From NCBI GenBank assembly GCA_025435555.1, contig JAIWWG010000044.1:1-64000 (forward strand): a stretch of 64,000 nucleotides of DNA. The letters run 5' to 3'. The DNA is from Chytriomyces cf. hyalinus JEL632 (lineage: Eukaryota > Chytridiomycota > Chytridiomycetes > Chytridiales > Chytriomycetaceae). Below, one piece after another: positions 1-50,100 of this stretch (the first letter of the stretch is position 1; the number at the start of each line of letters is the position of its first letter). The translations under genes were made by a program, and so were the position numbers. Under the pieces are notes generated by a model that worked only from the letters and a program-made list of their open reading frames with translations, was not told where the DNA came from and ran no database searches.

Positions 1-2311
1 CATCAGTATTACTCAAATGAAACTTCTCTGGGGAATATTTGAACTGCTGCAAGTCAAGTGCCCTTCTTTGAATGCAATTTTGAAGCTACGCAAGAAGCTT
101 TGCAAAGTGCAGCCCATTGAAAGGAAATCTGCATCAGGCATTCAAATCTTTGTCAGGCCTATTCCTGAGCTCATTGAATCTGCGTTTGCAACACCATCTA
201 TTGCAAAGGAAATCCGATATGGTCCACAGTTATCAACACATCCACAAGAAATTTTTGAGTCATTAGCATTTTCTGTGAGAGCGCCTTGCCTTTGGATGGA
301 CAACAATTCAACTCGATTTTACGCTGGGTGAGATCTTCCTTAAATGTTTTTAGTGATTTAGCTGATATCACTTTTAGAGATACTGTTGTAATGCCCAATT
401 TTGAAGAAGGCATTATTAAGTGTTTTCCAAAACCTGGTATTGTGGCATTTGGGCAAGTTGCTGAGCATTTCCATTCTGTGTTGTTGCAAAACTTCACAAC
501 TACAGTTGAACTGCATCCAGGGGATGCAATGACACTTGTTCAAAGGGGCAATCTCAGTATTCGAGGTTTGTGTGCAAGCATTTATTTTGAAGATAGTAAC
601 TGAATTTGTTCAGCAAATGGCCGGAAAGTCATCAACTTTCCAGTCATCTGCAGCTCAGATGAAACTTCAGGAAACACAACCAAGCGCTACAACCACTTTG
701 AAAACTTTTTCGTTATATTTCCATTGCTTCCGCACAAGTTTTATGGTCCTCGATATATCAACTTTGCTGCCACTACAAACACTGGATCATGGTCAGATAT
801 TGCTGAGGTTGTCTTGCACGATTTGAGAGAAGGTAACATTAATCTGTATTTATTTTGACATTGCAGTACTGAATAAATCACCAGGCAGCCCTCTATCTCT
901 TGGAATCAAAGTACTTGACTCAAGCACCGGAGAGGATGTGATTGTTGTTTCACAATTACTTGCAATGCTTGTGGATAATCCACGTGCAGCCCAAATATGC
1001 CATCAAGCTGGAGCACGAAGTGACTTCAACTGTCGAGTTTGCACTGCACCTATTGGAAGTCCATCCACTTGCATGCAACTTCATCCTTATCGATGGTTAT
1101 ATGAAACCAAGCAAGTACTGTCTCGAATGGCACAGATGAACAAAACACAATCAGAGTCTCTGAGAAAAGCAACTGGGATAACTGTTCCATCTGAGCACGC
1201 CAACATCTATCTCTCCCTCCCTGGTTTTTCACCTCATGCGCAAACTCCAGTTGAAATTCTCCATACACTGTTACTTGGAGTCATGAAATACTTGGGGACA
1301 GAGTCCAAAGAAAAGCTGAAGTCAAGGTCTCTCAAACTCAGAGCTGCATCTCTATTTGCAATCATCTCAACCTATCAACACTGTCATTTGTCATCAAAAC
1401 AAGTGACTCGCTACATTGGAAGCATGAATGGAAAAGACTTCAAGGGCCTTGCACAAATAGGGCCATTATTCTTCCCTTGGCTTCAGCCAAATCTAACTTG
1501 GCTTTGGCTTGCTGGTGCAATTCTTACGAAACTGGCATATGATTCCAAGTATCCACACTTTGAGTTAAGGTACCGCCATCTCCAAAAGGCTACCATTGCA
1601 GTTCAGCGTCTGTTCCATGTTTCACTGCCATCAGCAAAAGACAAGCTCAAAGTCCATCTACTTTCTCATCTCCCTGATAATTTCCGGATCTGGGGACCAC
1701 TGTCTCTGTATGCTGTTGAAGTTCCAGAACAAATGAATGGAGATGTGCGCAAAGACATAGCAAATTCAAATCGGCATTCACCATCAAGAGATGTGGCATG
1801 GGCATTTGCAATTCGGGAAGGGACAGTATCATATTTACGAGGGGCATCAGGAGGAGGGCCTGGATTACTTGAACTTGGAGCAAATTCCATTATAGTCAAG
1901 CATTTGTTCCCTCCCATCAGGCCAGTTCCATCAAGAGCTCGCATTCAGATTGGCAGATTCTTCTTTTTTGACAACTGGGGCCGTATTGGAAAAGTCATTC
2001 AACATAACGAGCACACCAAAACTTGTCTAATGCAAGAATTAGAGCTGAACGGCCAGTTAACATCATGGAGATTACGTGCATGTAGTTTGCACAACAACTT
2101 CTATGTCCCTGTTGGCAATATCAATGACCAAGCAGATGTCAGTCACGACTGCTGGGAAGAGCAGTTTTTGTGCAGCTGGAGACAAGATGGATCTATTGCA
2201 CATTCAACTTTGAACACGTATTTTCTAAATCCCTTTCGCATGGAATGTCATCACACACTTGGAAGTGCCCAAACAGATGTGTTCCTTGACTTTTTACTCT
2301 CAAAAGCTTGA
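1..2311 (+). mobile_element. Transposon-type protein gene, 5' truncated by window edge (fungal Tnp2/CACTA-like)
   Basis: The reading frame runs through several exons with no stop once short introns are removed. These are about 328-377 (50 nt), 566-613 (48 nt) and about 833-866 (34 nt), each with GT and AG ends; the main exon ends with a stop at 2311. The joined protein carries features of the large fungal Tnp2/CACTA-type element proteins: a DETSGNTTKRYNH-like block (about 655-700), a CxxC knuckle FNCRVC (about 1027), the PVEILHTLLLGVMKYLG motif (about 1250-1290) and a SNRHSPSRDVAWAFA block (about 1770-1810). No terminal inverted repeats or target-site duplication were found; the 5' end lies outside the window. 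AATAAA sits at 2335-2340. The open frame suggests a young or domesticated copy. The family call is by motif recognition; domestication is possible but unproved. Confidence 0.7.
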
Positions 2312-3264
2312 GATGTTTGTTGCTTCTTTGATTCAATAAAGAATTGAGAGCCTGTCTGAGCACTTGAGGTCCAAGGCCCATGTAGTGTTGCAAAACAAAG
2401 GTGAAAGGAGATGATTTGGTGGAGCAATTGATTGGCAAATAGTGGTTGGTCATGAAATCCTCTCACAAAATAAGAGCGCAGCCTTTTAAGTGTTTTATGT
2501 TCAGTCTTGTCAAAGCCCTCTGTTACGTAATCAGCCTGATCACGTAACTACCGCTCTCGCCTTTCAGCTATATTTGGAACCGTTCTTCACAACATTTTTG
2601 GAACCGGATTTCGACATGTCGAAATCTCTCTCGCCACTTCCCACGACATTTTTGGAAAACTCTTTATTTAGAAAACTGGAATTCAATATTTAAAGCGCTC
2701 CTCGTTCACTTGAATAAAGCAGCTTCTCTTACAACTCTTAATTCTCTTAAAGACAATCCTCAGAAAAACTCCTCGTACTCAGAGCCATTCCACACTATTA
2801 GCTATTCCGTCCCATCGTCACTGGGCATGCAGGATAGTCGTGGGAACCCTCGCATCCACTGCGTGGTATGCTGGTTCAAGTCCCCTTTTTGTCACTTTTA
2901 TCTCTAGCACCGCTTTTCTGCCGATGAAACGGCCGTTTTTCTCCAGCTCATCCGCCGATGATCTGTGGCTAAAAATCGGGCGACAATCTTCAGTGTCATG
3001 CGACCGAATAACGGCCGATTTCAAAAGCGGCCGTTTATTCTCCGCCAATCGGCCCGTTTTTTAGCAGTTTATTCAACAGTTTACTGACAGGCAAATCAAC
3101 CGGTCATCGTTGCCGAATCGGTGACGATCCCGGCCGACGCCGATTTCGGCCGAAAGCTTTGCCGATTCCGCTCCGATTTCTTTCGCGGCCGTTATCGGTC
3201 GGTTTTTTCGTTGGCGGTGTAAGTAAATCCTTAGGGTTTAAATGAGCAAGACTCTCCGTTAATT
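2312..3264. other. Intergenic region with a GC-rich palindrome cluster
   Basis: No gene is supported here. The first part is AT-rich flank of the transposon-type gene. A pol III B-box-like string (GGTTCAAGTCC, about 2873-2883) is followed at once by a T run, but no tRNA cloverleaf can be drawn. From about 2925 to 3200 the sequence becomes GC-rich and is dominated by CGGCCG palindromes and CCGATT/AATCGG words. This block directly abuts the first LRR-like gene, which lacks the signal-peptide exon seen in its paralogues. Confidence 0.6.
2928..3195. repeat. Cluster of CGGCCG palindromes
   Basis: About six exact CGGCCG hexamers lie within roughly 270 bp, at about 2931, 3014, 3029, 3131, 3147 and 3187. 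They are mixed with CCGATT and AATCGG words. A random hexamer is expected about once per 4 kb, so the density is striking. It could be a degenerate satellite or small mobile element, or a binding cluster for Zn2Cys6 factors, which read CGG triplets. Confidence 0.6.
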
Positions 3265-4255
3265 ATGTCCCTGAGCACAACTGGATGCGCAAACTTGCGG
3301 TCCGTCTTCACGTCCTTCGGCTTCCCCACAGCCGCAAGCAGCGCAGCCAGCAGCACATTCCCACAGTGCGGATGCCGCTTCACCGTCACTGCGAGCGGAG
3401 CGCAGAAGGCAGAGGCAAAGTGCGGGGAGACAAACTCGACCGATGCCGCTGTGGGCGACTGGACCGTCAGCGAGATCCGAATTGCGAATCCACCTGCTGT
3501 GCTGGCCCAGTTTCCCAGCGTGCTCATCACGCCTGGTGCCAACCAGGCCAATCCAGACGGCTTTGGGAGACTGAAGGAACTGTGAGTGGCATTGACGCAC
3601 TGCGATACTGAGCTCTAATGCCATCTCTTACCACACAACAGTGCGTTCACGAATAATGCCCTCACGGGTGCCGCTCTAAGAGGAGCTGAGGCTTTGCCAA
3701 CTTGGGTTAATGTCCTGTGAGTGATCATCTCCAATTTCCAAGAAAACCCAGTTTCACCCTACTGACGACTCAATTCCCAGTGACATCTCATATAACCCCA
3801 ATCTGCAACCATTCTCAAGCGTCAGCGAAGCTGGCACAGCTCCATATTATTCCTTCGAATTCGTCACCCAGGAAGGCAACCCAAACGTTTGCTGCCCTTC
3901 ATCTGCAAACCCGGACATTGCCATCAAATGCCAGCCAGGGCTGGGCGTTGCATGCCCCAATATTCTATTCACTGGGACTTTGTCTTCATCGAGCTCTTTT
4001 GTCCCGACTTCAACCTTACCGTCAAACTCGCAACCTAGCACCGAGTCTCCATTTGTTCCTTCACCTCTTTATTCAGACCCTGTCGTCCCATTTATTGCAC
4101 CCGTGAATGCACCGGGAAGCATACTGATGATTGCTCTCTTGTCGTCTGTTGTGTTCGGTGCACTGATCACGGGGGCTGTCATGTGGTATTCTATGAAAAA
4201 CCAGGCGCCAGTCACTATTGCGCTGGACGATGAAAGCCCTCCCGACAGGAAGTGA
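3265..4255 (+). CDS. LRR receptor-like single-pass membrane protein, paralogue 1 (possibly 5' incomplete)
   Basis: Exons 3265-3581, 3642-3716 and 3781-4255 join in phase 2 to a 288-residue protein. Order: GC..L...F.SFGF start with CGCRF Cys motif; LRR-like segments (LAFTNNALTGAALRG, then LDISYNPNLQPF); NVCCP cysteine block; Ser/Thr/Pro-rich stalk; one membrane helix (about residues 240-265, starting SILMIALLSSVVFGAL); short charged cytosolic tail. The next two genes have the same plan. Unlike them it has no signal peptide at its first Met and lacks two introns, those before the first LRR segment and before the CCP block. Likely a cell-surface protein; the ligand is unknown. The true start may lie in an unseen upstream exon, or the gene may be truncated at the CGGCCG-rich block. 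Confidence 0.7.
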
Positions 4256-4450
4256 GAAAAGGGAGCGTGCTGCAACTGTTTCTTATTTCTCATCTTTTAC
4301 TGGCACTTATCTTGTTTCATAGTACCCCCGCCACCTCCTACTTCTTAGAAGAATAAAAGACACACAAACATGGATAATATTAACGTCTTTCCTTGTTCTC
4401 AGTTCCGCCTGTTCAACTTGTGCATAAAAATAAACCTCAAACGTTTGACA

Positions 4451-5701
4451 ATGCTCGTCTTGACTGTTGCCCTTACGGTTCTCTCGGGCACTGCCTTCGG
4501 ACAACTGACAAGACCTGGATGCACGGCCCTACAAACTACAGTGGCGGCATTTGGATTCGTCATTTCGCCCGCTGCAGTTCCAGGCCAGTTTGCCGGTTGC
4601 GGATGTGCGTTTGGTGTTGCCGGGACTGATGCGCAGAACTTGGACGCAACCTGTGCCGCCGATCCAGACGACGAGAGTGTCTGGTCTGTGGTTACACTGT
4701 GAGTGGCAACTGATGTGTTTGATGTGCTGCCCAACTGAAACTCACACCTTCTGGTATACCAAGTACCATCTCAGGCCCCCCCGCCCCTCTTAGTGCCCTT
4801 CCATCACCACTGGCCAGGAGTGGTGCACCCAGTGTAGCCTTTACAAGACTCACTAGTTTGTGTGTATAGCCCCACGCAACTGGAATCTGCATTCTAACGA
4901 CACGACCCCAACAACAGAGCACTTACGAACAATGCCATCACTGGCGCCGCCCTTTCGAGAGTCGATCTCCTTCCTAATCGTTTGCAAGCATTGTAAGTCC
5001 CGGCGTGAGAAGTTCGGTACCTATTTCAACAACTGACCATTCTCGTTTGATCAGGGATATTTCCAACAACCCGAATCTCGCTCCTTTCCCAGCGCGAGAT
5101 GCTAGTAATGAAACCTCCCTCAACTTTTCTTTTTCAACAGTGTGAGTACTTTGTTTTTTGCGACTGTCTCCCAGAAACTGATGGCCAAAAAAAAAAAAAA
5201 AGAAACATGGCAGGGAACTCACAAATGTGTTGCCCCGTTTCACTCTTAACCAACGAGATCATTGAATGTACACCAGTTGCACCGGCATGCACCGGAGTCA
5301 CCAGCTCTACATCGACATCTTTGGCCACATCCACCTCAGCAATCGCCGCCATAACAACCAACACACGCGCAGTTTTTGCAAAACCATCCGCAGCCGGCAT
5401 TACATCCATCCCCGCCGGCGACAGCAGTAACAGCGGATCCGGTTTGAAAGCATCCCAAGATACGACCGACAGCGGGTTCCCTGTTGGAGCCAGTGTTTCG
5501 ATTGCGTTGGGCGCCATGGTGGTTATTGGAGCACTTCTGTTGGGTGGGTATGCGCATGCTGTGCGGTCTCGACAGAAGCCAGTTGTGTTCAATACTGATG
5601 GACAGGAAGCGCTCTGGCGTAGTGGAGATGCGTCTACTGTTGAGGGAGTGAGCAATGCGTCTTGTAGTGAAACTGCTGGATTTGTTGTTTCGAAAGTCTA
5701 G
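4451..5701 (+). CDS. LRR receptor-like single-pass membrane protein, paralogue 2
   Basis: Exons 4451-4698, 4764-4859, 4918-4992, 5055-5141 and 5203-5701 give 334 residues; all four introns are phase 2 and 59-65 nt. Met at 4451 starts a clean signal peptide (MLVLTVALTVLSGTAFG). Then come the GC..L and CGCAF cysteine motifs, a PP-containing repeat, the LRR module LALTNNAITGAALSR, LDISNNPNLAPF, MCCP with further cysteines, a Ser/Thr/Ala stalk, a membrane helix ending GALLLGGYA, and a tail with RSRQKPVV. The last acceptor was chosen so that the NMAGNSQMCCP block aligns with both paralogues. An in-frame Met exists at 4370, but 4451 gives the best signal peptide. Function unknown; inferred type I surface receptor or adhesin. 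Confidence 0.75.
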
Positions 5702-6140
5702 CGGGGAAAAGGGTAAGAAGGAGGGAATGACTCTATTTTTTTTATTAGCTGTTTCACCGCGCTTTTCAGCTGCTTGGACGTAATTAAACGTCTTTTAACG
5801 ACGGTGTCGGTCCTTTAAGTTCTTTGTGCATCGAAAACATTTTGATCGCTTGTCCCCTTTACTGAATGAAGAATATGATCATTCTCGGACTTGTCGGACG
5901 TTCTTGTCAATCGACACGGTGTGGTCTGAGAGGGCTACCATTTCTGTCTCTTGGCATGAACTGCTCTGGACTAGGTAGTTGGCTACTACACTTTTGGGTG
6001 AAGGCAGAGAGTTTCAGCTCTCAAATATGGTCCCAGTGCATAAAGTCACATGCATGTCTCGTCTAAAAATATAAGTGTTGTAAAAAGGGCCACCAAACCC
6101 CACCCGGACCATCCCTTCAAACACCGACCAACATCCCGCC
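5702..6140. other. Intergenic spacer between LRR-like paralogues 2 and 3
   Basis: No coding potential recognised. It should hold the 3' end of paralogue 2 and the promoter of paralogue 3. No clear TATA box was seen close to 6141. Confidence 0.5.
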
Positions 6141-7512
6141 ATGCAACTCAAATGCACGTGGCTTCTCCCGCTTCTCCCCGTACTCGCATCAGCACAGCTG
6201 TCTGAGAGTGGGTGCCGCAATCTGCGGTCCGCCTTCACATCCTTTGGGTTCTCAACAACACCCATCACAACAACAACCACCGCAAAAACAACCTCCGCTA
6301 CTGCCGCAACAACTGGCAGCACGTTAAACTCACTCGTGCAATGCGGTTGCTCTTTCGCAGTCTCGGCCAATGCGAACCAAATCGCCACCGCAACTTGTGG
6401 CATAAGCAGGACATCCAACACTTCGGCTGTGTTTTCGGTACTTTCTCTGTGAGTGAGACTTCTACTGCATCTACTGCTGGGTTCCCATCCGTTGAATCCA
6501 TGCCAATGCTTCTCACAGTTCGATCTCGAATCCACCCATCACTCTCGGCTCTCTTCCGGCAGTGCTGGCTGTGTCGACTGGAAATGCGCCTGGTTTCGAA
6601 TGGCTGTCCAACTTGTACGTGTTTGTTTACGTGTGCATCTTTCTTCGAAAACTCAAGCCGATGTTATATTCCAGATCTCTCACAAACAATGCGCTGAGAG
6701 GGAATGCGCTCATGAAAGGCGAACAACTTCCAACAAGGACAGCAAATCTGTGAGTGCCCACACAACAATTTTTTTTTGGGTAACTTTCGGAAGAATGGGT
6801 TTCGACCAATCAACCAGCGACCGCAAACGAAACACTTCCGAGATCATTTCATTAAATTGCGCATTTTTAGGAACGTGTCATTTAACCCTACGCTGAGGCA
6901 GTTTCCTGGCCTTGGAAATGGATTCGATGAAAACTCGCTTCCTCCATTCTACTCCTTTTTGACAGTGTGGGTGGAATCAATCTGACAGCTGGTGTTTTTC
7001 TCGCAAACTTATCGCTCTTCCTGCACAGCGACCAAACAGGAAACCCCGACATTTGTTGCCCACCGTCCTACACCGAAGAAATACCCATGACCTGTATTCC
7101 CGAAGCGCGCACATGCACTGGTCGAAAAACCGATGTCGCCAGTCCAGATTTAGCCAACCCCAACGCGCAAAATTCGAACTCATCATCCGTCGATCTGACA
7201 ATGAACACTGCATCGGAAAATTCAGAAACTTTGACACCGACAACCTCGACACTATCGTCAGATTCAATACCATCAAATGTGGATTCAAATTCAGACGGAC
7301 TACGGACGGATGGTGCGCAACGATTGTCGACGGGGCTTGTGATTGCGATTGTACTCGCAAGCGTGATTACGGCAGGCGCACTGCTCATGGGAGGGTATGC
7401 GTATGTAATGCGGGAGCGGCAGAAACCTGTTGTGATGGTTGTGGATGAGCAGGAGCAAGAGTGGGGGCAGGAGGAGTTGGATGGAGAGGGTCCGTTTATC
7501 GTGACGCGATGA
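6141..7512 (+). CDS. LRR receptor-like single-pass membrane protein, paralogue 3
   Basis: Exons 6141-6448, 6519-6614, 6675-6749, 6871-6966 and 7029-7512 give 352 residues; all introns are phase 2. Signal peptide MQLKCTWLLPLLPVLASA, then GCRNLRSAFTSFGF (nearly identical to paralogue 1), a Thr-rich insert, QCGCSF cysteines, the repeat SISNPPITLGSLPAVL, the LRR module LSLTNNALRGNALMKG, NVSFNPTLRQFPGL, DICCP and further cysteines, a Ser/Thr/Asn stalk, a membrane helix with GALLMGGYAYV, and a 30-residue acidic tail beginning RERQKPVV. Exons 2 and 3 have exactly the same lengths (96 and 75 nt) as in paralogue 2, so the duplication included introns. One exon per LRR-like unit suits repeat growth by exon duplication. 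Confidence 0.75.
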
Positions 7513-7597
7513 AAGCCGCGCATATCTTTTCAACTTTTTAAGCGGAGGAGGAACACTTCCTTTTTTTTTGTTTATGTGTGTGTAGATGCGATATGGG

Positions 7598-7604
7598 TAT
7601 AAAA
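7598..7604 (+). promoter_or_regulatory. TATA box of the single-homeodomain gene
   Basis: TATAAAA lies about 105 bp upstream of the chosen ATG at 7709, in an AT-rich stretch after the LRR array. Confidence 0.45.
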
Positions 7605-7708
7605 TAAATAATAACTTTATTCGTTGCTTTTTCAGAATCGGAGTTGGAGGGATCGATTTCACTGATATCTTTTTTCACCGACAGAAGAAAACCACTTTTC
7701 CCGAAAAG

Positions 7709-8392
7709 ATGCCATCCTTGGAAATAGCCTGGCCTGACAACTGCGACTGGGAATACGGTCTCCTTGACCCTCTGTCTCCTCAGTGCGGAGATCCCTCAGA
7801 GAACCTTGGCTACGAACACCCACTGCTGAAGCCGATTCCGCATCCTCTATGCACCAGCTTCGACATTGAAGCGCAGCTGAGTCTTGACCTCGCCGAGTTT
7901 CCTTCGCCTCAAACGCACACACCGGCGTTGAGCGCACTGTCTCCTGCAGCAACTGAGGGCGAGGTAGTGGAGATGATGGAGATGATGATCAACGACTTGA
8001 ACCAGGTCATCAATCCTACAATGACTCATGTGATGGGTCCTTTCAACAATTGTATGGCGAGGCCAGTCCATGCTAGGATGAGTCCTGTCAGTCACGTTGC
8101 CAAGCCAATGTTCAATGCCAGCATGGTCAACACCAACATCAACCCAATCAGTGCTATCAGTGCAATCAATGCAGTCAACGCAAACACAGCAGTTTCATCG
8201 TCCAGAAAGCGCAATAGATTGCCAGCCAATCAAAAGGCCGCAATGGTCGCTCTCTTTGACAGCAACGACACACCACCTACGAACGAGCTGCGCGCACTCG
8301 CGAACCGATTCAGAATGTCGCTGAGACGCGTTCAATACTGGTTCCAAAACAGACGCGCCGTCAAAAAGAGACGAGCGATTTCGACACACTGA
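7709..8392 (+). CDS. Homeodomain transcription factor, single exon
   Basis: 227 residues from the Met at 7709. An in-frame Met at 7586 lies upstream of the TATA box and is less likely. The N-terminal part is acidic and Pro/Ser-rich. The C-terminal homeodomain (about residues 165-224) begins SSRKRNRLPANQK and has the recognition helix LRRVQYWFQNRRAVKKRR, with the invariant W, F, N and R residues of helix 3. Nuclear DNA-binding regulator; target genes unknown. Unlike the two-homeodomain gene 3 kb downstream it has no intron in helix 3. Confidence 0.88.
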   Translation: MPSLEIAWPDNCDWEYGLLDPLSPQCGDPSENLGYEHPLLKPIPHPLCTSFDIEAQLSLDLAEFPSPQTHTPALSALSPAATEGEVVEMMEMMINDLNQVINPTMTHVMGPFNNCMARPVHARMSPVSHVAKPMFNASMVNTNINPISAISAINAVNANTAVSSSRKRNRLPANQKAAMVALFDSNDTPPTNELRALANRFRMSLRRVQYWFQNRRAVKKRRAISTH

Positions 8393-8680: not shown

Positions 8681-11182
8681 CTAATCTTCTTCTTCTTCCT
8701 CTGCTGCCTCCTCGCCTTCCTCCGCTGCATCCTTTGCTTCTTCCTCCTTCGCTCGCTTGGCTTCTTCGAACGCGTCTTCCTCTTCAACGGTAGGATCCTT
8801 CTGCTCAATCATCCCCATCTCTTTTAAAATCGGGTTATCTGGGTCGTCCGGGTTCTCTTCTTTCTCAAAGAGCGCAAATTCTTTGGCAATGTCAGGCAAC
8901 ACCGGAGGAAGCAGCATTCCGTCCGATAATCCCATCCCTTTACCAACATCCCCATGCCCATCCCCAACATAGATATTTGCAAACTTGTCATTATAAGCGA
9001 CAATCATGGCACCAGGCCATCTCGTTGAGCGCAGCGCGACTGGAGTAAACTTTACCGGCGACAGAGTTGAGCAAGCCCGTGCAACCCAGGCAGGTCCACC
9101 CTCCGCCGCATCCTCATCGTTTGCCAACGGAGATAAAAGCGGGGGTCCAGTCTCGGGCTCAGCGCTCTCGGCAAGGAGTTCTTCAGCGTCGGCACCTCCT
9201 TCGCCTTCCTCCTTTTCCTCGTCTTCATCCCCGTCGCCATCTTCATCGCTCTTTTTGAATGAAGCGTATGGGTTCTCCCATGTGATTCTTCCTTGTGGGA
9301 GGATGTAAGGAACGTGGTGGACCCAGCTTGTGAGTTGGAGGAGTGCATCGTTTTGGAGACCTTCGAATTCGGGGTTGATGATGATGGCGGGCTGGTCTGT
9401 TTGCAGGTTAAGAGGATTGGTTGTGTGGAAGGGGACTTGTCAACAAGAGGAGCACTCAACGGCCTTCTTCTTCACTCTCATCCTCGGGATCAAAGGTGTA
9501 GTACCCAGCTGGGCTTGCAACGGTGGATGCAGAGATGCGAGCAATCTGGCAGCGCAGGTACTGGGCCTCTGTCGCTTCGAATTTGGGGTACGACACAATC
9601 TGAGACAAGATCAGTCGGTAGCTCGTACTCATACAACTCAAAGAAGAGACAAGTACCTGTTGCTTTAAATCACCAGTAAAGTATTTCCGAATCTGACGCG
9701 AGATTTGAAGCTTTTCTGGAATCACGTCAGGAAGACGGTGCCACGGCGCACCCGCTTTCAAGCGCCGCCGATTACGCAATCAGAAAAAATGCCGCCACAA
9801 AACCAGTGTAGAAAATACTCACGATATGAGCACACGTAATAAACATAGCGATTCACTCCAGCCCGACTCTCTTTCGGAAGCGGTGGAATCACCCGATTCT
9901 TGGCCTTGGGTAGAGTAGGATCCTCGACAGGGACCTGCTCCGCCGTTTCGGCTTCAGCAGCGGCAGCAGCGGACTCCTCAGCCTCTTCCGCGGATTCTCC
10001 GGTTCCATTCACCAAGTCACCGTCATCGTCGGAAGCTCCATCTTTCAGCTCGCCTTCCGTGATGATGTAGTTTCCGTGGAGACCGTGGATTTTCCCCCAC
10101 AGTCGAACAGATTTAAGCGGTTTCTCGGCCACGAGTTTTCGTAGTGATAGGAACAGCATGAATGTTTCCTCTCGACCAAAAGACACCTATTTTCCAATGC
10201 CCATCTGGTTTGTTAGTTTCAAGCTTATGGAATTCTGATTGCGCTTACCCCAGCCCACTCCCACAGATTTGACAAGTCCATAATATCTGGGATTTCTCCC
10301 AGGCCATCTTCTGGTGGATCTTCCTGAGACGGTTGCTTGTGAGGTGAAAAGGGCATGTCAGCATACAGGCAGCATTCAAACGCAGTGTACACACATTGAA
10401 CAGCTGTATCTGTACTTTTGAAGTTTCGATGCCTGGAGCGCTGTCGTAGACCGGCTAGAAATTGTGTCAGTTAATAAACAATAAAATTAATAAACAAAAG
10501 GAAACCTTGAAGATCGACGAAGCCGCGTCGACAGCTTTAAATCGTGAGCGTTTAATCTCCGAAGAAATTGATTCGAACGCGTCTGCCAAGAAAACACGCG
10601 TTCACTCAACCGAGCAAGATAGCGCTTCGCGAACAAACCAATTGCGTTTTTGGGCCGTGTCTCCAGCACGCGCATCACTGTCAACGTCAAATGGTCGTAC
10701 AAGTTCATTTCCGTCTTTTCAGAGTTTTGAAGCAAGAACGAGCGCGCAAGCTGAAACTCGACATCTTCTGGAATCTCAGACTCTGGCTTCATGTACTGGT
10801 CCTTGCGTTTGAGATACGGCGTCGTTGATGCTGTAAGAGTTGCTGCGGGTGTTGGTTGTGGGGGTGGTGATGGAGTTCTTTCTGGGACAGCATCTGCGAT
10901 GGGAGGGGTAACCACAGCTGGGTCTGATGGTACTTCTGGAGATGGAACAATGACTTCTGCTTCTACTTGCGGAGCGTTTTCATCTGTCGCAGGAGGTTGC
11001 GGACTGGGTGGGGCTGGGTTTGGAGTTGGTGGGGGCTGATCTTCCACTGCAGTTTGTTCGATGGCGGGTTCTTCCACTTGCGGGGGTAGCGGTGGTGGTG
11101 GAGCTTCCTCCTCTGGGGCGATTTCAGCTAGCGGGGCAGGCTCTGGTGCGGGAGCTTCGATTGGTTCGTCGTTTTCGTCCAT
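8681..11182 (-). CDS. RSPH4A: Radial spoke head protein (RSPH4/RSPH6 family)
   Basis: Eight exons on the minus strand: 11182-10639, 10582-10506, 10454-10395, 10335-10249, 10186-9823, 9754-9657, 9599-9461 and 9396-8681, giving 694 residues. The first about 120 residues are Pro/Glu-rich. The family core follows: LLQNSEKTEMNLYDHL, DAFESISSEIK, WEWAGVSFGREETFMLFL, RLWGKIHGLHGNYIITEGE, RYVYYVCSYPGAPWHRLP, QIRKYFTGDL, NPEFEGL, SWVHHVPYILPQGR and LRSTRWPGAMIVA with KFANIYVG. The C-terminus is a run of acidic residues. The protein belongs to the radial spoke head of 9+2 axonemes, which passes central-pair signals to dynein. It points to a flagellated zoospore. It is divergent from the double-homeodomain gene (273 bp between starts). 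Confidence 0.92.
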
Positions 11183-18159: not shown

Positions 18160-21100
18160 TCAGACGTCTTCTGAATCCTCCTCATCGGTAGAAGTCCCAG
18201 AGAGCATCCTATACCGCCGTTCAGCAAACTTTTGCCAGCCCCTTCAAAATAAGAGGTTGTCAGCATTAAAACAAATAGTCCCCATTCAAAAAATCAAACT
18301 CACTCTAATCGAACACGCCTTTGAACACTACTCGGCATAGAAACAACATCACTCTGCCCATCGCCCGGAGAAACAGCATCCGTCTCATCCTCTTCAAGAA
18401 CCCACACTTCGTCATTCAGACGGAAAGAAACGTCAGCAGATCGTCGCAAATTTTCAACATGCCGCCGGCTGTCGAGAAGGAAATCTAAAAATAGCCCCGC
18501 TGCCTTTGCGTTCCTCTTCAAGTCCAAGAGTGTGATGCTGCTACCAGCGGGCCGTATCAGGTCAATGCTGTAGAAAACAGAGATATCAGTAAGTCTTCGA
18601 TATACGAGATCCAACTACGATGTGAGCCACATACATGAGTGAGAAAAAGTCATACACAGTGTACTGCTCAGGAACTTTGGCATACTGATGCTCCCAAAAC
18701 GTTTCAATCTCCAAAAGTGAAACGAGTCCATCTTCATCAATGTCCAAAACTCGGAACCAGTAATATAACCCAGGAACGCTCGTCTTATCTTCCACAGCCA
18801 TAATGAATGCTGCAGTTTTTTTGAAATTAGTATCGGAGAAATCGGAGAAACGCAATCACCAGCAAGTTTTGCACAACTCACCAACAAATTCTTTGAACCC
18901 AAAGCACTTGATCCTGTTTTCCGCCAACATCACAACCGTGTTGGTTTCATCGCTCTCTACGGGAGCATCTTCTGGAATCACCGGAACTTTCCCGTAGCAC
19001 TCAATCACACGCGCAAGCGCGGCATGCGACAGCCCGCGGTCGCTGTACCGTTCCAAATCATGCAGAGTCAAATACATGTCGTGGTCCTTGTCCAGTTCCC
19101 AGAATGCACAGTAAATAACGTAAAAGTCTTTGTATGAAAACGGTGCGGGTATCTAGGTGCTGGATGTTAACCCCAGTGTTGGGTTCTCGCGAGCCATTGG
19201 GGGGAGTACTTACGTTCAAACCCAGTGAGTTCGTTGCTCCTTCAATGTCTGAAATAACTTTGTAAATATCTGAAATTCGAAAGTCACGGATCGTCATGCG
19301 ATTGCGGCCATGGAAATGGTTGGAGTAAAATAACCGAACAATCACAGTCTCAGTGAATCGAGCTTGAAAATCGGGAGATGACGCCAGAAATGCGAAAGCA
19401 GAATTGTTTTCCAGAACGTCTTAAGAAATACGAGTTCAGTAAAAGAGGTGTTGCAACAGTTTCGCACGCTCACCTTCGACAAAGATTTTGAAATCTTCGG
19501 GCACCAAAACCTTTTCGGTCTTTGAAGTTCTCAAAATCTCAAACACAAGTGCTTCCATGTCTGGGTTAAATCTCCGGTAAAGCCCTTCAACGAAAGCTTC
19601 AAATTCTCTCCAAGACACAAGCCCGTCATCTCGACCTCCATCTTCAACATTCAGCGCAACTATCTTGCGATGTAAGGCATACGTCAAGTTGCGGGGTAAC
19701 CGGCAGCAAACAGTGACAGCCTCAAATTCATCTCGCGACAATGCTAGAGACTTTTGGGATGAAACAGGAGCTTCCGAAGAAACAATGGTTTCAACGCTTC
19801 CAGCAGACAACAGTGGGTAGAATATGGGTCGTGCCAGATCCTGCGACACCCAAAAATCAATATGAAAGGCCTCAGCAACGAGAAAAGGGGACAGCACAAC
19901 ATTGTCTTTACCAAAACGTAATTCGCCAATTTTTCTTTCTCCGCAGGACCCACAAGTGCACGATACGTCAATCGAGAATTAAGTGCTTGCAACGCAGCAG
20001 CAATCTTGTCGCTCTTGGTTTGAACCGAGGCCGTGTCTGATTTCAACTCGCTATCCGATTCAGTCGCAGGTCTGACTACCAAATCATCCTCGTCGTCTTC
20101 TTCAAGGGAATCCGCAATTTTAGATTGTTGCGAGGATTCTGCTTCCTCCAATCGCGCAAAAGGGCCTTGATCGAAGCTTGTTCCAATTTCAGCGACTGGG
20201 GTCTTGTATTCCTCATCAGAAAGCGGCGAAAACAGTTTAGAAGACTGGGATACGAGTGTTGAAACGCTGATTGATAAAGCTGAAGGGATCACAGTGTCCA
20301 GCGTGACGGAGTTTTTATCAGAACCGACATTACGCGAGACGAGCGAATCCTCCACTGGAATAGCTGATTCATCGCTCGAGGAAGGCTCCGCTGCTCGAGC
20401 AATACTTTCGATCGCGGCTTCCTCCTCTTCCACTGGCGATACATCCAATGTGACTTCAACAGTTTGAATCTCAACCGTCTCAACGATCGTGTCTTGCTTA
20501 AAACGCTCTTCGGATTTCGGAATCGACGACACGCTTTCGATGACCGTTGTGGTGGTGACTGTTTCGGTTTCCACAACAACGTAGACTGGCGCTTCCTCTA
20601 CAAGACTGACATCCATTTTTTCGACAGCCGATTTCTTTTCCGAAGATGCGGAATTGTTGTCGAAGGATTGCGCGGGTATGAGAAAGTCAATCGTCGCATC
20701 TTGCAAAACAATTCCTGTTTCAGATACAGACACAGAGTCGTCATTATCCGTCACTTCAGAGACTTCATTTGCACTCCCTGTAAAGTATTCTTGAATTGAA
20801 TCCGAAATTTGTCCAGCAGTTGCAGTTTCAGTTGCAGATTCAGTTGACAAAATATTGTGCTCCAAGACAACGTCTTGCAAAACTGTATTCGCCGCATGAA
20901 TCGGTGATAGCGGGGTTGGTTCAGGAGACGGAGATTTGCTATGCGCTTCTTCGGGTGTCGGAGTGTCGGGTGACACCAATGATGGGCTCGGGATTCGCTT
21001 GAGTGACGTCGGCGACGTTTGAATGGCGGTGGAGTCCACGAGGGTATCGTCGTCTGTTGTGTTTGCAATATTTGAAAGAGCTGCGTCTGAGCACGAGGCA

Positions 21101-22007
21101 CTGTGGTGGTTGATTTTTATGAAGATTGAAATATTTAGAGTTTTTGAGTGATGCATTTCCAATAAGTATCGCGATTTAAGGGGGTGGCTGGTAAGGGTAC
21201 TAACTTGCTCGAGGAGGTATGAGGCGTGGTGCTAATGGGCAATGAGCTTGGGTGGACACCCATAAGTGAGTGTCTTCTAATGACGGTTGCTATTGGAAAA
21301 ATAAAATCTGAGGTTGTGCGAACAATGAACGAAGTGGTCGCAGAAGCCGCGACGGATGCGGACTCTGAGTATGAATACGAAGTGTTTGCAGGCATAGAGG
21401 CTCTGCGTAGCTGGACTGGGTTGATGGGTCGTTTGTACTCCAGTTCAGAAGGTGAGGCTGTCCGAGAACGGGGCAGACTGTGTTGATGAGGGGCTGCATA
21501 TTCAGGCTGAGGAATGGCTGCTTCCATTTGAATGGGATCAATAGAGACGGTTGAGATGACGGCGTCGTCATCGGTGAGAGAAGGAAATGAGTCATTATGG
21601 GTCATGGCAGTTTCGGCATGGACGTCCACGGGAGTGACGGTATCAATCTCGACAGCATCCAGTGTGTATGCGTGTCTACCGAATGCGTTCTCCTTGGCCC
21701 CATCCCTCTCACTGTCCCTGTCATGGTCTCTCTCCGCATCCCGACTGTCGCTCGTGTCCGACGCCGGCGTGCCAGACCTCCCGGTAACAATACGAAACAA
21801 CTGTTTGAGCGGAGCTGAGCGCGTGCGGACAGCGAATGCGTTGAGCAGCGAGTTTGGGTCGGACTCACGGTCTGTTTCATGGTCGTGGTGGTCCTTGTCG
21901 GTGTCGTGTTCGAGAAAGAGGTCGGGCGAAGCGTCGCTTGCCCGGTTGGAGGGTGTCGGCGATGCCGAGGGCGACGGCGAGCTCCATCCCTTGAACCACT
22001 TCTTCAT
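18160..22007 (-). CDS. PP2A regulatory subunit B'' (PR72/PPP2R3-like), EF-hand
   Basis: About eight exons on the minus strand. Well-supported exons: 22007-21205, the 5' part of exon 2 from 21100, then 19419-19214, 19152-18882, 18809-18635, 18567-18304 and 18241-18160. The exon 2/3 junction near 19900-19960 is unresolved. The N-terminal about 650 residues are low-complexity Ser/Thr/Glu. The conserved C-terminal half has FSYKDFYVIYCAFWELDKDH, an EF-hand YYWFRVLDIDEDGLVSLLEIE (DxDxDG loop), IDLIRPAGSSITLLDLKR and GWQKFAERRYRML, all typical of B'' subunits. These are calcium-sensitive targeting subunits of the PP2A holoenzyme. It is divergent from TPPP. Confidence 0.85.
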
Positions 22008-22304
22008 TCAGTCCGTCCAGTCCTGAAACAGTTTGGAAACTTTTTAACTTTTTAAGACCACCATGCACGTCCCTTCAAATAAATTGGTTGGCTTTCTGTT
22101 TGTTGGTAGACGCAACAAGTGAGATCCGTTTCTTTGTTGATGCTGTAAACATGGATGCCCATTCAAACCGCGCCTCCAAATCCATTTTCCTGCTTTGGAT
22201 AAAAATAGAAAGCAAGGAAGGAAAAGAAAGCCTTCAGAAAACAACAAAGGGTGAGACCCCGTCTAATGCTCTACAGCAACATGCGATGGCTGACCATTGA
22301 TGCT

Positions 22305-22310
22305 TATATA
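22305..22310 (+). promoter_or_regulatory. TATA box of TPPP gene
   Basis: TATATA lies about 82 bp before the TPPP start codon, inside the 384-bp divergent region shared with the PP2A B'' gene. Confidence 0.45.
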
Positions 22311-22391
22311 TCTGCAGTCCCTGGAATTCACAGAAACCACGGCCAACACTTCTCTCCCTGAAAACTCTTCCTGAAATACAAGCACCAAAAA

Positions 22392-23637
22392 ATGGCAACA
22401 GAACAAGACCTACACGCCCGCTTTGAGAAATTCTGCGCGTTTGGCCGCGGGAGTGTCGGAAGCAGTCTCGACAGCCTCACCTCTGGCAGCACAATGGACG
22501 GCGCCAAATGGGCCAAATTCGCGCGCGACTGCAACTTGATTGACAACAAGCGCGTCACTTCCACCGACATTGATATCATCTTCAACAAGGTCAAGGCCAA
22601 GTCCGCCCGCCGCATTGACTGGGAGGAGTTCCAAGTCGCTGTTAAACTGGTCGCCGGCAAGAAGTATCCCAAGCTGCATGAACAGGATGCCTACACCAAG
22701 ACTATTTATGATGCTTGCATCTTGTCGAATGGACCAGTTGCGCGGGCCACGGTAACCGTTGCTTGTGAAGTACCGTCATCCACACTGCTGAAACTTGTTC
22801 AATGCAGACTGTTAAAAACGATCCAGTACTCGACCGCTTGACAGACGTATCTGGATACGTGCGTGAACTGCTAAAACAATATTAATGTAAACACATATAC
22901 TAACCAACTAATGCACCGCAGACCGGAACTCACAAGAACCGGTTCGACAGCGCCGGAAGAGGTCTCGGTCTCAACGGACGCGTAACAGGCAAGAGCACAG
23001 ACACCCTCTCCAAGATTGTCAACAGAGACGCGCCGTCCCAGCAACCATTGGCGCAGACAAACCGTCAGAGTGTGTCCAACAGGCGCCAAGAATCCCAATC
23101 CAAAATGCGGGCGCCCACTGCCGCATCTTCCATTTCACAAAACAAGCGTGCCAGTGTCTTGACTCAGTCGGAGGAGAAGCTTGGTTCGTTTGTATAGCAT
23201 CTTGTTTTCAATCTGTCAAAACTCATTCTTTAAACTCCTTAGAAAACATTGTCAACGCGCCAAAGAAGGCACCCATTGCCGGTCGCCGCTCTCAAGCGCC
23301 ACACGCCACGACTAAAGGAGGCAATTACACTACATCTTCGTCCCTCGCTTCCTCGCAGCAATCTCTTGCGAAATCTTCCACTACCGCCTCGGTATGTTTT
23401 CTGATCCCTCTCTGGAGTACTGTATAATTGACAGATCGACCAAATGAAAAGAAATCGAGCGTGTTTGACCGTTTGACGGACTCGTCTGGATACACAGGAA
23501 CACACCAGCACCGGTTCAACGCGGATGGTAGTGGAAGAGGACTTGCGGGGAGAGACAGTGCTCCGTTGGGAAAAGGAGGCGTGAGTCAGTATCGCGGTGG
23601 GAACGTCAACAGCTTGAGCCAGATCCTGAGAAGCTGA
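22392..23637 (+). CDS. TPPP: Tubulin polymerization-promoting protein (TPPP/p25-alpha) with doubled p25 signature
   Basis: Exons 22392-22751, 22808-22858, 22922-23183, 23243-23391 and 23452-23637 give 335 residues. The N-terminal p25-alpha core includes FEKFCAFGRG, MDGAKWAKFARDCNLID, TDIDIIFNKVK and RIDWEEFQVAV. The Gly-rich signature appears twice: DRLTDVSGYTGTHKNRFDSAG (about residues 126-147) and again at the very C-terminus as DRLTDSSGYTGTHQHRFNADG. A basic Ser/Gln-rich linker joins them. TPPP proteins bind and bundle microtubules and are found mainly in ciliated or flagellated organisms. The second signature is a partial domain repeat not expected in the plain family form. Confidence 0.9.
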
Positions 23638-48219: not shown

Positions 48220-50008
48220 TCATCGCGCCAAAATGTTCAAAGGAACGACCCCTTGCCGCCCAGTGTCCAGGTTTTGCGCAAACGCGTATCCATCCGCAAC
48301 CACCTGGAGGACAACCAGCCGATCGTTGGCCCTCACAATGTCCATCTCTCCATTCTCGGTATCCCCCCTAAACTCAAACATTGCCTTGTATCCGGGTGCA
48401 GTTGCTGGCGATGAGGACCCACTGTTGAACGGATCCCGGCTTGCGCCACGCGCTCGGGATGCGTACACGTCGCTCGCTTCTTGGTCATCAAATCGCTGAA
48501 ACTGAGATCGCTCCATGCTGAATTTGTTGGGTTGTCCGTTTTGACTTCCCCCCTGCACCTTGTGCGGCTTTTGAAGTGAAAGGCGATTTGCGGCGGCTTT
48601 GAAGCCCGAGTCACCATCGTCGCCGTCGTGGGGTCGAGCAGGGTTCGAAAACGCACTGTTTTTCCACCACCCTGAAACCCATGCGTACCGCGCTTTTGAT
48701 TCACCCGCTTTCGTCCTTCGCATTTCTTCAGGATCCTGGCGAGAAACGCCGATCCAAATGATGACTCCACTGAGGATCACCATACACACCCCGATAATAA
48801 TCCCGCTCAATTGACCACAGCTGAGAAGAAAGAAGCGGTTGAACTGAACATAGCATGTCCACGGCGGTGGTGGTTTGTCTGGGTAAACTCCGCCGTTGTT
48901 TAAAGCTTTAACAATCGCAGGATCGACTTTACAGCAAGGATCAGTGGTTTCTTTGTAACAGTGCAAGAACGCTTGGAAGATTCCGGATGTTTGATTTCCG
49001 TTCACAATGCCAAAACCTGAGCGATAGTAAAAACAACATTGTTCACGGTTACAATTCCCATCAAATCCCAAAAAAGCAAGGGCTACGCACCACACTGCAA
49101 ACGCTCTGTGCTGTTGTCAACTTTGATCATGTCAACACCGGTATAGCCGTCTTGTTCCACCGCAAATTTGACCACAGCGCATTGGGCTCTTGTGGACTTG
49201 ACAAATTGACCGCGTGTTATCGAAGTTGATCCCTGGCATCCAGTTAACGAGTCGCTGATGTATTCAAACGTCGAGTTGACAAAGTTGTCGCAAGCGTACG
49301 GGGAGATGCGAGGTGTCAAGGACTTTTCTGGTACTTGGCCGTTGTGAGCAACAACGTTACAGTCAGTAGCGGAACCGGGGAGACTTTCTCCGCTGTTGCC
49401 AATCACGTACGGGTCCTGCAGGAACTGTAGTTGTGATGAGTGAAAATGAACGAAAGTCATTGGCGGTTGTAATGACAATAGGGACCACCCACATAGTCGC
49501 AAAAGTATTGCACTGAGTATCTGACTTTCGATTGGTCCCATGCCAGGCACTGGATGTCACCGAGGGTACCCGTGATGCCATATGCCCACCGCTGCACCAT
49601 GGAGTCAAAATCCCTCGATGTTGCGTCACGGCCATCCGCAATACCCACTTGCTGGCGCAAGAACTCGGACTGCGCATTGAAATAGTAGGATCGAAAAGAG
49701 GGGCACAGTTGTGACGTTGTGAGTGATACACACTTGAGCGTCGGATCCTGAGTTTCAACTTGGGCAACAACCGCTGGGGCGGGGGAGATAATAATTGCAT
49801 TTCTGGACGTAGCTGATGAGGTGGTTATGACGAGAGTTGCGGCAGTCGTGGAGGACGATGCTGATGGAGCTGATGTGGGCAAGCTGTTCGAAGGGTCTGA
49901 TTGGGAGGATGGCACAGAAGGGCTCTGGCTTGTGCTGTTTGTCTGGGCATAGCATGGAGCAGAAAGCGCCAGTACCAGGGCCAGGAGCGGAGCATGCGTA
50001 CGATGCAT
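48220..50008 (-). CDS. Single-pass membrane protein: Cys-rich ectodomain, TM helix, cytosolic SH3
   Basis: Exons 50008-49493, 49424-49091 and 49016-48220 on the minus strand give 548 residues. Signal peptide MHRTHAPLLALVLALSAPCYA, Ser/Thr-rich stalk, then a Cys-rich region of about 270 residues (LCPSFRSYYFNAQSEFLRQQ, YACDNFVNSTFEY, FLHCYKETTDPCCKVDP). A membrane helix (SGIIIGVCMVILSGVIIWIG) follows, then a basic cytosolic linker with SGWWKNS. A C-terminal SH3 domain comes last (YKAMFEFRGDTENGEMDIV, then VVADGYAFAQNLDTGRQGVV with PLNIL). It looks like a receptor or adhesin linked to actin or signalling by its SH3. Only 92 bp separate its start from the end of the WDR59 gene. Confidence 0.8.
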
Positions 50009-50100
50009 GTTGGGTGTTGGTTTCAGGAAGGACGTGAAATTGATCGGAAGTTAAAAGCTAAAAAATTTACGAGTACTCGCTCATCTTCTTTATTGTTTGG

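Follow-up and report, generated by a model that had tools for sequence, protein, structure and literature searches.

A small family of single-pass, stalked proteins with LRR-like heads and phase-2 repeat exons in a flagellate fungus

Three adjacent genes at 3265 to 7512 of the 64,000-nucleotide stretch of DNA analysed here (the window) raise the question of whether they encode a family of leucine-rich repeat (LRR) surface proteins and, if so, whether their exon design keeps changing what these proteins recognise. An initial annotation, made from the letters alone, had described the three as paralogous LRR-like single-pass proteins with repeats in separate exons, and had read the array as built for repeat shuffling and possibly diversifying. 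The former description was supported nearly to the base, but the latter reading was not.

Gene models were obtained by joining exons at GT-AG junctions, all on the + strand. Gene 1 (3265..4255; 288 aa) consists of exons 3265-3581, 3642-3716, and 3781-4255, which are 317, 75, and 475 nt long; gene 2 (4451..5701; 334 aa) of exons 4451-4698, 4764-4859, 4918-4992, 5055-5141, and 5203-5701 (248, 96, 75, 87, and 499 nt); and gene 3 (6141..7512; 352 aa) of exons 6141-6448, 6519-6614, 6675-6749, 6871-6966, and 7029-7512 (308, 96, 75, 96, and 484 nt). The 75-nt exon, which carries LRR2, was found in all three genes (3642..3716, 4918..4992, and 6675..6749), and the 96-nt exon 2, which carries LRR1, in genes 2 (4764..4859) and 3 (6519..6614), so the two genes have exons 2 and 3 of exactly 96 and 75 nt, as annotated. 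In gene 1, the counterpart of the 96-nt exon comprises 35 codons fused into exon 1. LRR3 is encoded by the 96-nt exon 4 of gene 3 (6871..6966), by its 87-nt counterpart in gene 2 (5055-5141), and by a part of the last exon of gene 1, into which it is fused. The weak point of these models is the last intron of gene 2, where the frame requires an unusual acceptor, an A15-G end (A19-G in the second copy described below). A gene 2 model without the 96-nt exon, using the acceptor ...GGCAG, was rejected, as it has stops in frame.

All 10 introns in the window genes are in phase 2, just as had been annotated, and so are 8 of 8 in two distant paralogues, C177 and C79, and 10 of 10 in the second copy. 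Furthermore, each of the 16 repeat-region introns interrupts the repeat at one and the same codon, that of the hydrophobic residue directly before xLxxN. Since every separate LRR exon is flanked on both sides by phase-2 introns and has a length divisible by three (96, 75, and 87 or 96 nt), the reading frame survives their skipping or duplication.

C177 and C79 are dispersed, stand-alone, full-length genes that show the full plan and keep the 96- and 75-nt phase-2 exons (exon 2 of gene 2 has its equal length in gene 3 and in both of them). Therefore, genes 1 to 3 are complete genes, as the initial annotation had it, and the possibility that they are fragments of one long gene was ruled out. Searches with four family proteins found five loci only (genes 1 to 3, C79, and C177), every one with exactly three LRRs, and the LRR exon lengths across loci are not uniform (96, 75, and 87 or 96 nt). 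Synonymous sites between the paralogues are saturated or have dS above 1, thus giving no sign of recent expansion; in a tree of eight rows the branches were long and the order of the paralogues was not resolved. One scan each yielded 85 pattern matches in bacterial or archaeal contigs and 97 in viral contigs, none of which was confirmed by tblastn. A second copy of the window genes lies on C231 and is probably the other haplotype. Because a Radial_spoke match adjoins the window genes and a fungal Zn2-Cys6 domain occurs on C231, the host was taken to be a flagellate fungus.

In each of the three window proteins, three weak LRRs lie between a Cys N-cap and a CCP cap and are followed by a stalk rich in Ser and Thr, a single transmembrane (TM) helix, and a short tail; the annotated GC..L, CGC, and CCP elements were present in all of them. 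Two motifs described as shared were so only in part: genes 2 and 3 carry LTNNAxxG exactly, where gene 1 has FTNNALTG, and genes 1 and 2 carry LDISxNP exactly, where gene 3 has LNVSFNP. Ser and Thr make up 34, 39, and 36% of the stalks of genes 1, 2, and 3, and just 26 and 22% of those of C79 and C177. Apart from any signal peptide, hydropathy predicted a single TM helix at all five loci. The tails are about 20 to 46 aa long, those of genes 2 and 3 containing the annotated RQKPVV; Pfam searches of the three window proteins found no kinase match and no domain in the tails.

Signal-peptide-like N termini were predicted by hydropathy in genes 2 and 3 only, agreeing with the two of three annotated, and were absent from gene 1 in both copies. 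The ATG of gene 1 sits at the point that corresponds to the end of its relatives' signal peptide, and a simple scan of 1500 bp upstream detected no exon with a hydrophobic start and a phase-2 donor in either copy. In the window, the stretch directly upstream of gene 1 is a high-copy repeated element (2301..3221, no strand assigned) that is not part of the family and recurs at nearly full length in 31 further places, at 100% in 30 of them and at 98% in one; homology to the C231 copy starts at 3241. As a separate question that concerns gene 1 alone, these observations give about an even chance that it either is a decaying, 5′-truncated copy or encodes a product that enters the membrane with no signal peptide. 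Against this stand the open frame and intact splice sites, and the C231 copy starting identically despite different upstream DNA.

To compare the window and C231 copies, dN/dS was determined by domain, for these two sequences only. In gene 3, the head (LRRs plus cap) had a dN/dS of 0.045, its 128 codons differing by 2 replacement and 14 synonymous changes (binomial P 4e-7), whereas the stalk had a dN/dS of 0.81, with 14 replacement versus 6 synonymous changes (P 0.43; LRR versus stalk, Fisher P 0.0008). The dN/dS of 0.048 for the gene 2 head is a weak value, because the two copies are almost identical over the tract that holds most of this head; LRR versus stalk gave a Fisher P of 0.037. For the TM helix plus tail, 1 replacement versus 6 synonymous changes were counted in gene 3 (P 0.001) and 6 versus 17 in gene 2 (P 2e-6), and the tail by itself had a dN/dS of 0.06 in gene 2 and 0.13 in gene 3, from few sites. 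Gene 1 differs by one synonymous change in 288 codons, its frame and splice sites being identical. The reading frames are under purifying selection between the two copies; in gene 3 this selection acts on the head, TM helix, and tail, and the stalk drifts.

We consider it probable, from the predicted proteins, that these genes of a flagellate (zoosporic) fungus belong to an old family of few members, whose products cross the membrane once and serve as stalked LRR sensors or adhesins. The signal peptide would route the protein to the surface, where a disulphide-capped head of three LRRs would bind a conserved ligand. The Ser/Thr-rich stalk, probably O-glycosylated, would project this head beyond the wall or coat, the single TM helix would anchor the protein, and the short tail, which has no known enzyme domain, would pass the state of the head to a partner. 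The phase-2 repeat exons would be a residue of the ancient growth of the LRR domain by exon duplication, not a live shuffling device. As the heads seem to be ancient and highly conserved, a family with a stable role in sensing or adhesion is more likely than a recognition array that changes fast.

It is also possible, with a chance well below even, that the proteins are purely structural or adhesive coat glycoproteins that do not signal, the head adhering to wall, host, or substrate, with the tail as a mere anchor. Such a role would suit the drifting stalk sequence and tails in which Pfam found no domain in the three window proteins; nevertheless, the tail is conserved between the copies, if over few sites, and RQKPVV is common to two paralogues.

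In a register test anchored on the introns, covering 150 non-independent repeat pairs, similarity between different repeats was 0.095 BLOSUM62 per site at register 0 and -0.66 to -1.23 at 20 other shifts. Pair by pair, register 0 was the peak for five of six repeat pairs, the exception being the second with the fourth. This intron-anchored test thus detected tandem LxxLxLxxN-type repeats in register. Furthermore, hhalign matched the family to a genuine LRR protein that this genome encodes, with a probability of 66% and an E of 5.5e-5, covering all three repeats, versus an E of 0.31 for a control with a radial-spoke protein. NPxxCC, which follows the last repeat, is reminiscent of LRR C-caps. 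An AlphaFold model of gene 1 exon 1 alone, from a five-row alignment with four other window exon pieces, had a mean pLDDT of 46.8 and was unusable. These register and profile matches make it quite unlikely that the head is another small Cys-rich fold with LRR-like strings and no LRR solenoid, although several results point that way. Pfam LRR_4 was matched in gene 2 only, at 18.3 bits for the full-length and 19.6 bits for the trimmed protein (E-values 0.0027 and 0.0011; cut-off 27), and the curated Pfam LRR cut-off was passed by none of the three full-length window proteins or five trimmed family members. A PDB profile search yielded a single match, Toll, at an E of 0.041. The strict LxxLxLxxN pattern exceeded shuffles only in genes 1 (P 0.002) and 2 (P 0.0005), where one of three matches each was out of repeat register, and not in gene 3, C79, or C177.

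The least likely reading, a diversifying recognition or adhesion array in which the duplication, loss, or skipping of symmetric phase-2 exons would alter specificity, accords with the tandem cluster, with the frame-neutral LRR exons, and with the shuffling and diversification of brown-algal ROCO genes of the same layout in the available text of PMC11378527, but it is very improbable against exactly three LRRs at all five loci, an LRR dN/dS of about 0.05 between the two copies, ancient paralogues, and the finding of five loci only. Neither "diversifying" nor "built for repeat shuffling" is therefore supported for this family.

The favoured reading, a stalked LRR sensor or adhesin, has counterparts of similar plan. 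In Wsc/Mid2 cell-wall sensors, a small head sits on a Ser/Thr-rich stalk, followed by one TM helix and a short tail, and the present proteins match this plan; their head, however, is LRR-like, and no WSC domain (PF01822) was found in the three window proteins or the five trimmed heads, including those of C79 and C177, while two matches, one exceeding the cut-off, occur elsewhere in the genome. Plant LRR receptor-like proteins also join a capped LRR ectodomain through one TM helix to a short kinase-free tail; the present family has far fewer repeats and a Ser/Thr stalk, and the likeness is one of plan only. Gonadotropin receptors likewise are surface receptors with phase-2 LRR exons, but are seven-TM proteins with longer LRR arrays.

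One LRR per exon with phase-2 introns is already known, in the accessible parts of the sources, from Tetrahymena, brown algae, and vertebrates (PMC6564038, PMC11378527), the vertebrate case being the LRR exons of the gonadotropin receptors mentioned in PMC11378527. In Tetrahymena, the text at hand describes exons of exactly 90 bp with phase-2 introns, most LRR genes having 1 to 50 of them, more than 1,000 LRR genes in eight of 10 species, and recent shuffling (PMC6564038). The present family is alike in its exact-length repeat exons and phase-2 introns, but has five loci found, always three LRRs, and exons of 96, 75, and 87 to 96 nt. Brown-algal ROCO GTPases have 72-bp LRR exons, shuffling, and diversifying selection in the sections available (PMC11378527); one LRR per exon in phase 2 is shared, whereas our five loci show no 72-bp exons and no variation in repeat number, and the heads of genes 2 and 3 have a low dN/dS.

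Among the matches listed, the directly relevant paper on a comparable family of chytrids or early fungi was the survey of Soanes and Talbot 2010, which, in its available portion, reported LRR receptors to be almost absent from Fungi and retained five from four fungal species, including the chytrid Batrachochytrium dendrobatidis (PMC2939053). As described there, those receptors resemble the present proteins in having an LRR ectodomain, one TM helix, and no other domain, but the present family differs by its stalk, caps, and separate repeat exons. That survey required a Pfam LRR above the cut-off; the present family falls below cut-offs of this type, so the survey would probably have missed it.

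An unlikely extension of these results is that zoosporic fungi possess a separate lineage of LRR surface receptors that standard domain searches miss. The LRR domain of this lineage would have been built through duplication of phase-2 exons, with no link to the corresponding events in animals, algae, and ciliates, and its frame-neutral repeat exons would be skipped at some stages to give heads of varied length. The family itself puts a fungus among the lineages whose LRR exons are in phase 2 and follow the repeats one by one, and, with LRRs below Pfam cut-offs, plausibly represents a class overlooked by surveys of the kind described in the available text of PMC2939053. Its conserved head makes both ligand and localisation directly testable.

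Joining the exons at GT-AG boundaries gave three complete and separate models on the plus strand of the window, gene 1 (3265-4255), gene 2 (4451-5701), and gene 3 (6141-7512), which belong to a family combining a cysteine N-cap, three weak leucine-rich repeats (LRRs), a CCP cap, a Ser/Thr-rich stalk, one transmembrane (TM) helix, and a short tail. All 10 introns of these models were in phase 2, and the repeat exons of genes 2 and 3 were exactly 96 and 75 nt, both as the initial annotation had stated. The 75-nt exon was also present in gene 1; of the four intron positions in genes 2 and 3, gene 1 lacks two, the first and the fourth. An A-run precedes the AG of the last gene 2 intron, being A15 in the window and A19 in the second copy of the cluster on contig C231; among the acceptors found, the one used keeps the frame and agrees with the gene 3 sequence (FSTV-NMAGNSQMCCP in gene 2 versus FLTV-DQTGNPDICCP in gene 3). 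Two dispersed full-length paralogues, on contigs C177 (389 aa; exons 242/96/75/609/148) and C79 (392 aa; exons 254/96/75/606/148), had phase 2 in eight of eight introns and encoded the TM helix in a separate last exon; the extra intron ahead of this exon splits a Glu codon.

In the repeat region, all 16 introns split a hydrophobic codon (L, I, or V) immediately 5′ of an xLxxN-like stretch; the gene 2 sites are L/TISGPP, L/ALTNNA, L/DISNNP, and V/NMAGNS, and the other genes follow the same pattern. Anchored at the introns, between-repeat similarity over 150 non-independent pairs was 0.095 at register 0 and −0.66 to −1.23 at 20 other shifts; taken pair by pair, one of six repeat pairs (the second with the fourth) was without a peak at register 0. 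By hhalign, a five-sequence profile aligned across all three repeats with a genuine LRR protein encoded in the same genome (probability 66%, E 5.5e-5), while a radial-spoke protein used as a control gave an E of 0.31. No Pfam LRR model reached its cut-off on the family proteins, the sole match in a PDB profile search was Toll (E 0.041), and only in genes 1 and 2 did a strict LRR motif occur more often than in shuffled sequences, with one out-of-register match in each. A partial structure model, of the gene 1 first exon alone, had a mean pLDDT of 46.8. The reading of an LRR-like single-pass family is supported, and the head, comprising the LRR and cap region, is likely, though not proven, to be LRR.

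Of the 12000 bases compared, the window matched C231 from 3241 through the last, and a match was found again at 20001-23000 (91%). Window 50001-53000 had no full second copy in the genome, a single stretch of roughly 220 bases matching C215 at 80%, and the C231 stretch past gene 1 was single copy. The C231 copy may be a segmental duplication, but most simply C231 and C182, the window contig, would be two haplotypes, their contigs overlapping by ~26 kb as judged from the match coordinates. From 3241 to about 5265 the two copies differed at 8 aligned sites plus the A-run length, and past ~5265 their divergence in 250-nt bins was 4-12%, apart from a value of 22% in a single bin that lies between genes 2 and 3. 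The nearly identical ~2-kb tract, ending in the gene 2 last exon, likely reflects recent gene conversion or loss of heterozygosity.

Synonymous and replacement changes between the window and C231 copies were counted by the Nei-Gojobori method. Gene 3 carried 39 synonymous and 28 replacement changes in total, distributed as 14 and 2 in the LRR and cap region (dN/dS 0.045), 3 and 0 in the signal peptide, 4 and 0 in the TM helix, 2 and 1 in the tail, 9 and 10 in the N-cap (dN/dS 0.38, a marginal departure from neutral, P 0.047), and 6 and 14 in the stalk (dN/dS 0.81, indistinguishable from neutral, P 0.43). Gene 2 had 7 and 1 in the LRR and cap region (dN/dS 0.048), which lies mostly inside the nearly identical tract, and 9 and 14 in the stalk (dN/dS 0.55), with dN/dS of 0.21 for the TM helix and 0.06 for the tail; gene 1, with 1 and 0, had too few changes to inform. 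Between the C79 and C177 paralogues, LRR dN/dS was 0.10 at a dS of 1.1, dS being 2.2 across the whole protein. Exons of the gene 3 copies differed in length by multiples of 3 (484 versus 496 nt), but introns did not. Together, the change counts and frame-keeping exon lengths indicate that the reading frames are under selection, with the head conserved and the stalk drifting. The proposals that the family is diversifying and that the array serves repeat shuffling were not supported, and because the counts for genes 1-3 rest on two sequences, which cannot resolve single sites, positive selection may still act at a few residues.

In both copies, the gene 1 ATG aligns with the predicted signal-peptide end of its relatives, and a simple scan of 1500 bp upstream found no exon combining a phase-2 donor with a hydrophobic start in either. 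Gene 1 may be decaying, or its product may be inserted as a tail-anchored protein. A high-copy element stops about 43 bp 5′ of gene 1 in the window; on C231 the DNA 5′ of gene 1 differs and holds other open frames, and the gene has a fungal Zn2-Cys6 domain nearby. The repeated element at 2301-3221 has 31 other near-full-length places, and because 30 of these are at 100% and one at 98%, a very recent burst is suggested. Beside it, a 494-aa open frame (827-2311) had no Pfam match. The cluster is followed by a homeodomain gene (7586-8392, plus strand) and a radial-spoke gene (8681-9439, minus strand), assigned by Pfam matches, the latter to Radial_spoke. Together with the Zn2-Cys6 domain on C231, these matches point to a flagellate fungus as the probable source of the DNA, which agrees with the 'chytrid' of the initial annotation.

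Used as queries against the organism's own genome (37.8 Mb in 242 contigs), the three window proteins and the C79 paralogue matched the cluster on C182, its second copy on C231, and one gene each on C177 and C79, that is, at least five loci when the C231 copies are taken as the other haplotype and a 105-bp C230 piece is left out. This isolated piece (L006, 4266-4370) corresponds to the gene 3 last exon, minus 27 bases, at 98% to the C231 copy. Weak matches on C201, C75, C232, C202, and C188 (E 0.03 to 1.7) were kept out of the count; the one inspected, on C201, is an LRR protein whose F-box score of 20.0 bits falls just short of the 20.5-bit cut-off.

The LRR repertoire of this genome is very large, with at least 156 LRR_8 matches from 150 of 1007 candidates scored. 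Five sampled regions (e.g., L067 1946-3322, L072, and L074) were long open LRR frames with no clear internal TM, two of them beginning with what we take to be F-box-like stretches. The genome probably contains an expanded family of intracellular F-box-LRR proteins.

According to Soanes and Talbot (PMC2939053), LRR receptors are almost absent from fungi, with five cases kept from four species, one of them the chytrid B. dendrobatidis. LRR exons with phase-2 introns have been described in Tetrahymena (PMC6564038) and in brown-algal ROCO genes (PMC11378527), and the brown-algal paper names gonadotropin receptors as a further case of phase-2 introns; a gene layout of this kind therefore has precedents. 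No report of its use in a fungal stalked surface family was found in searches of open-licence papers.
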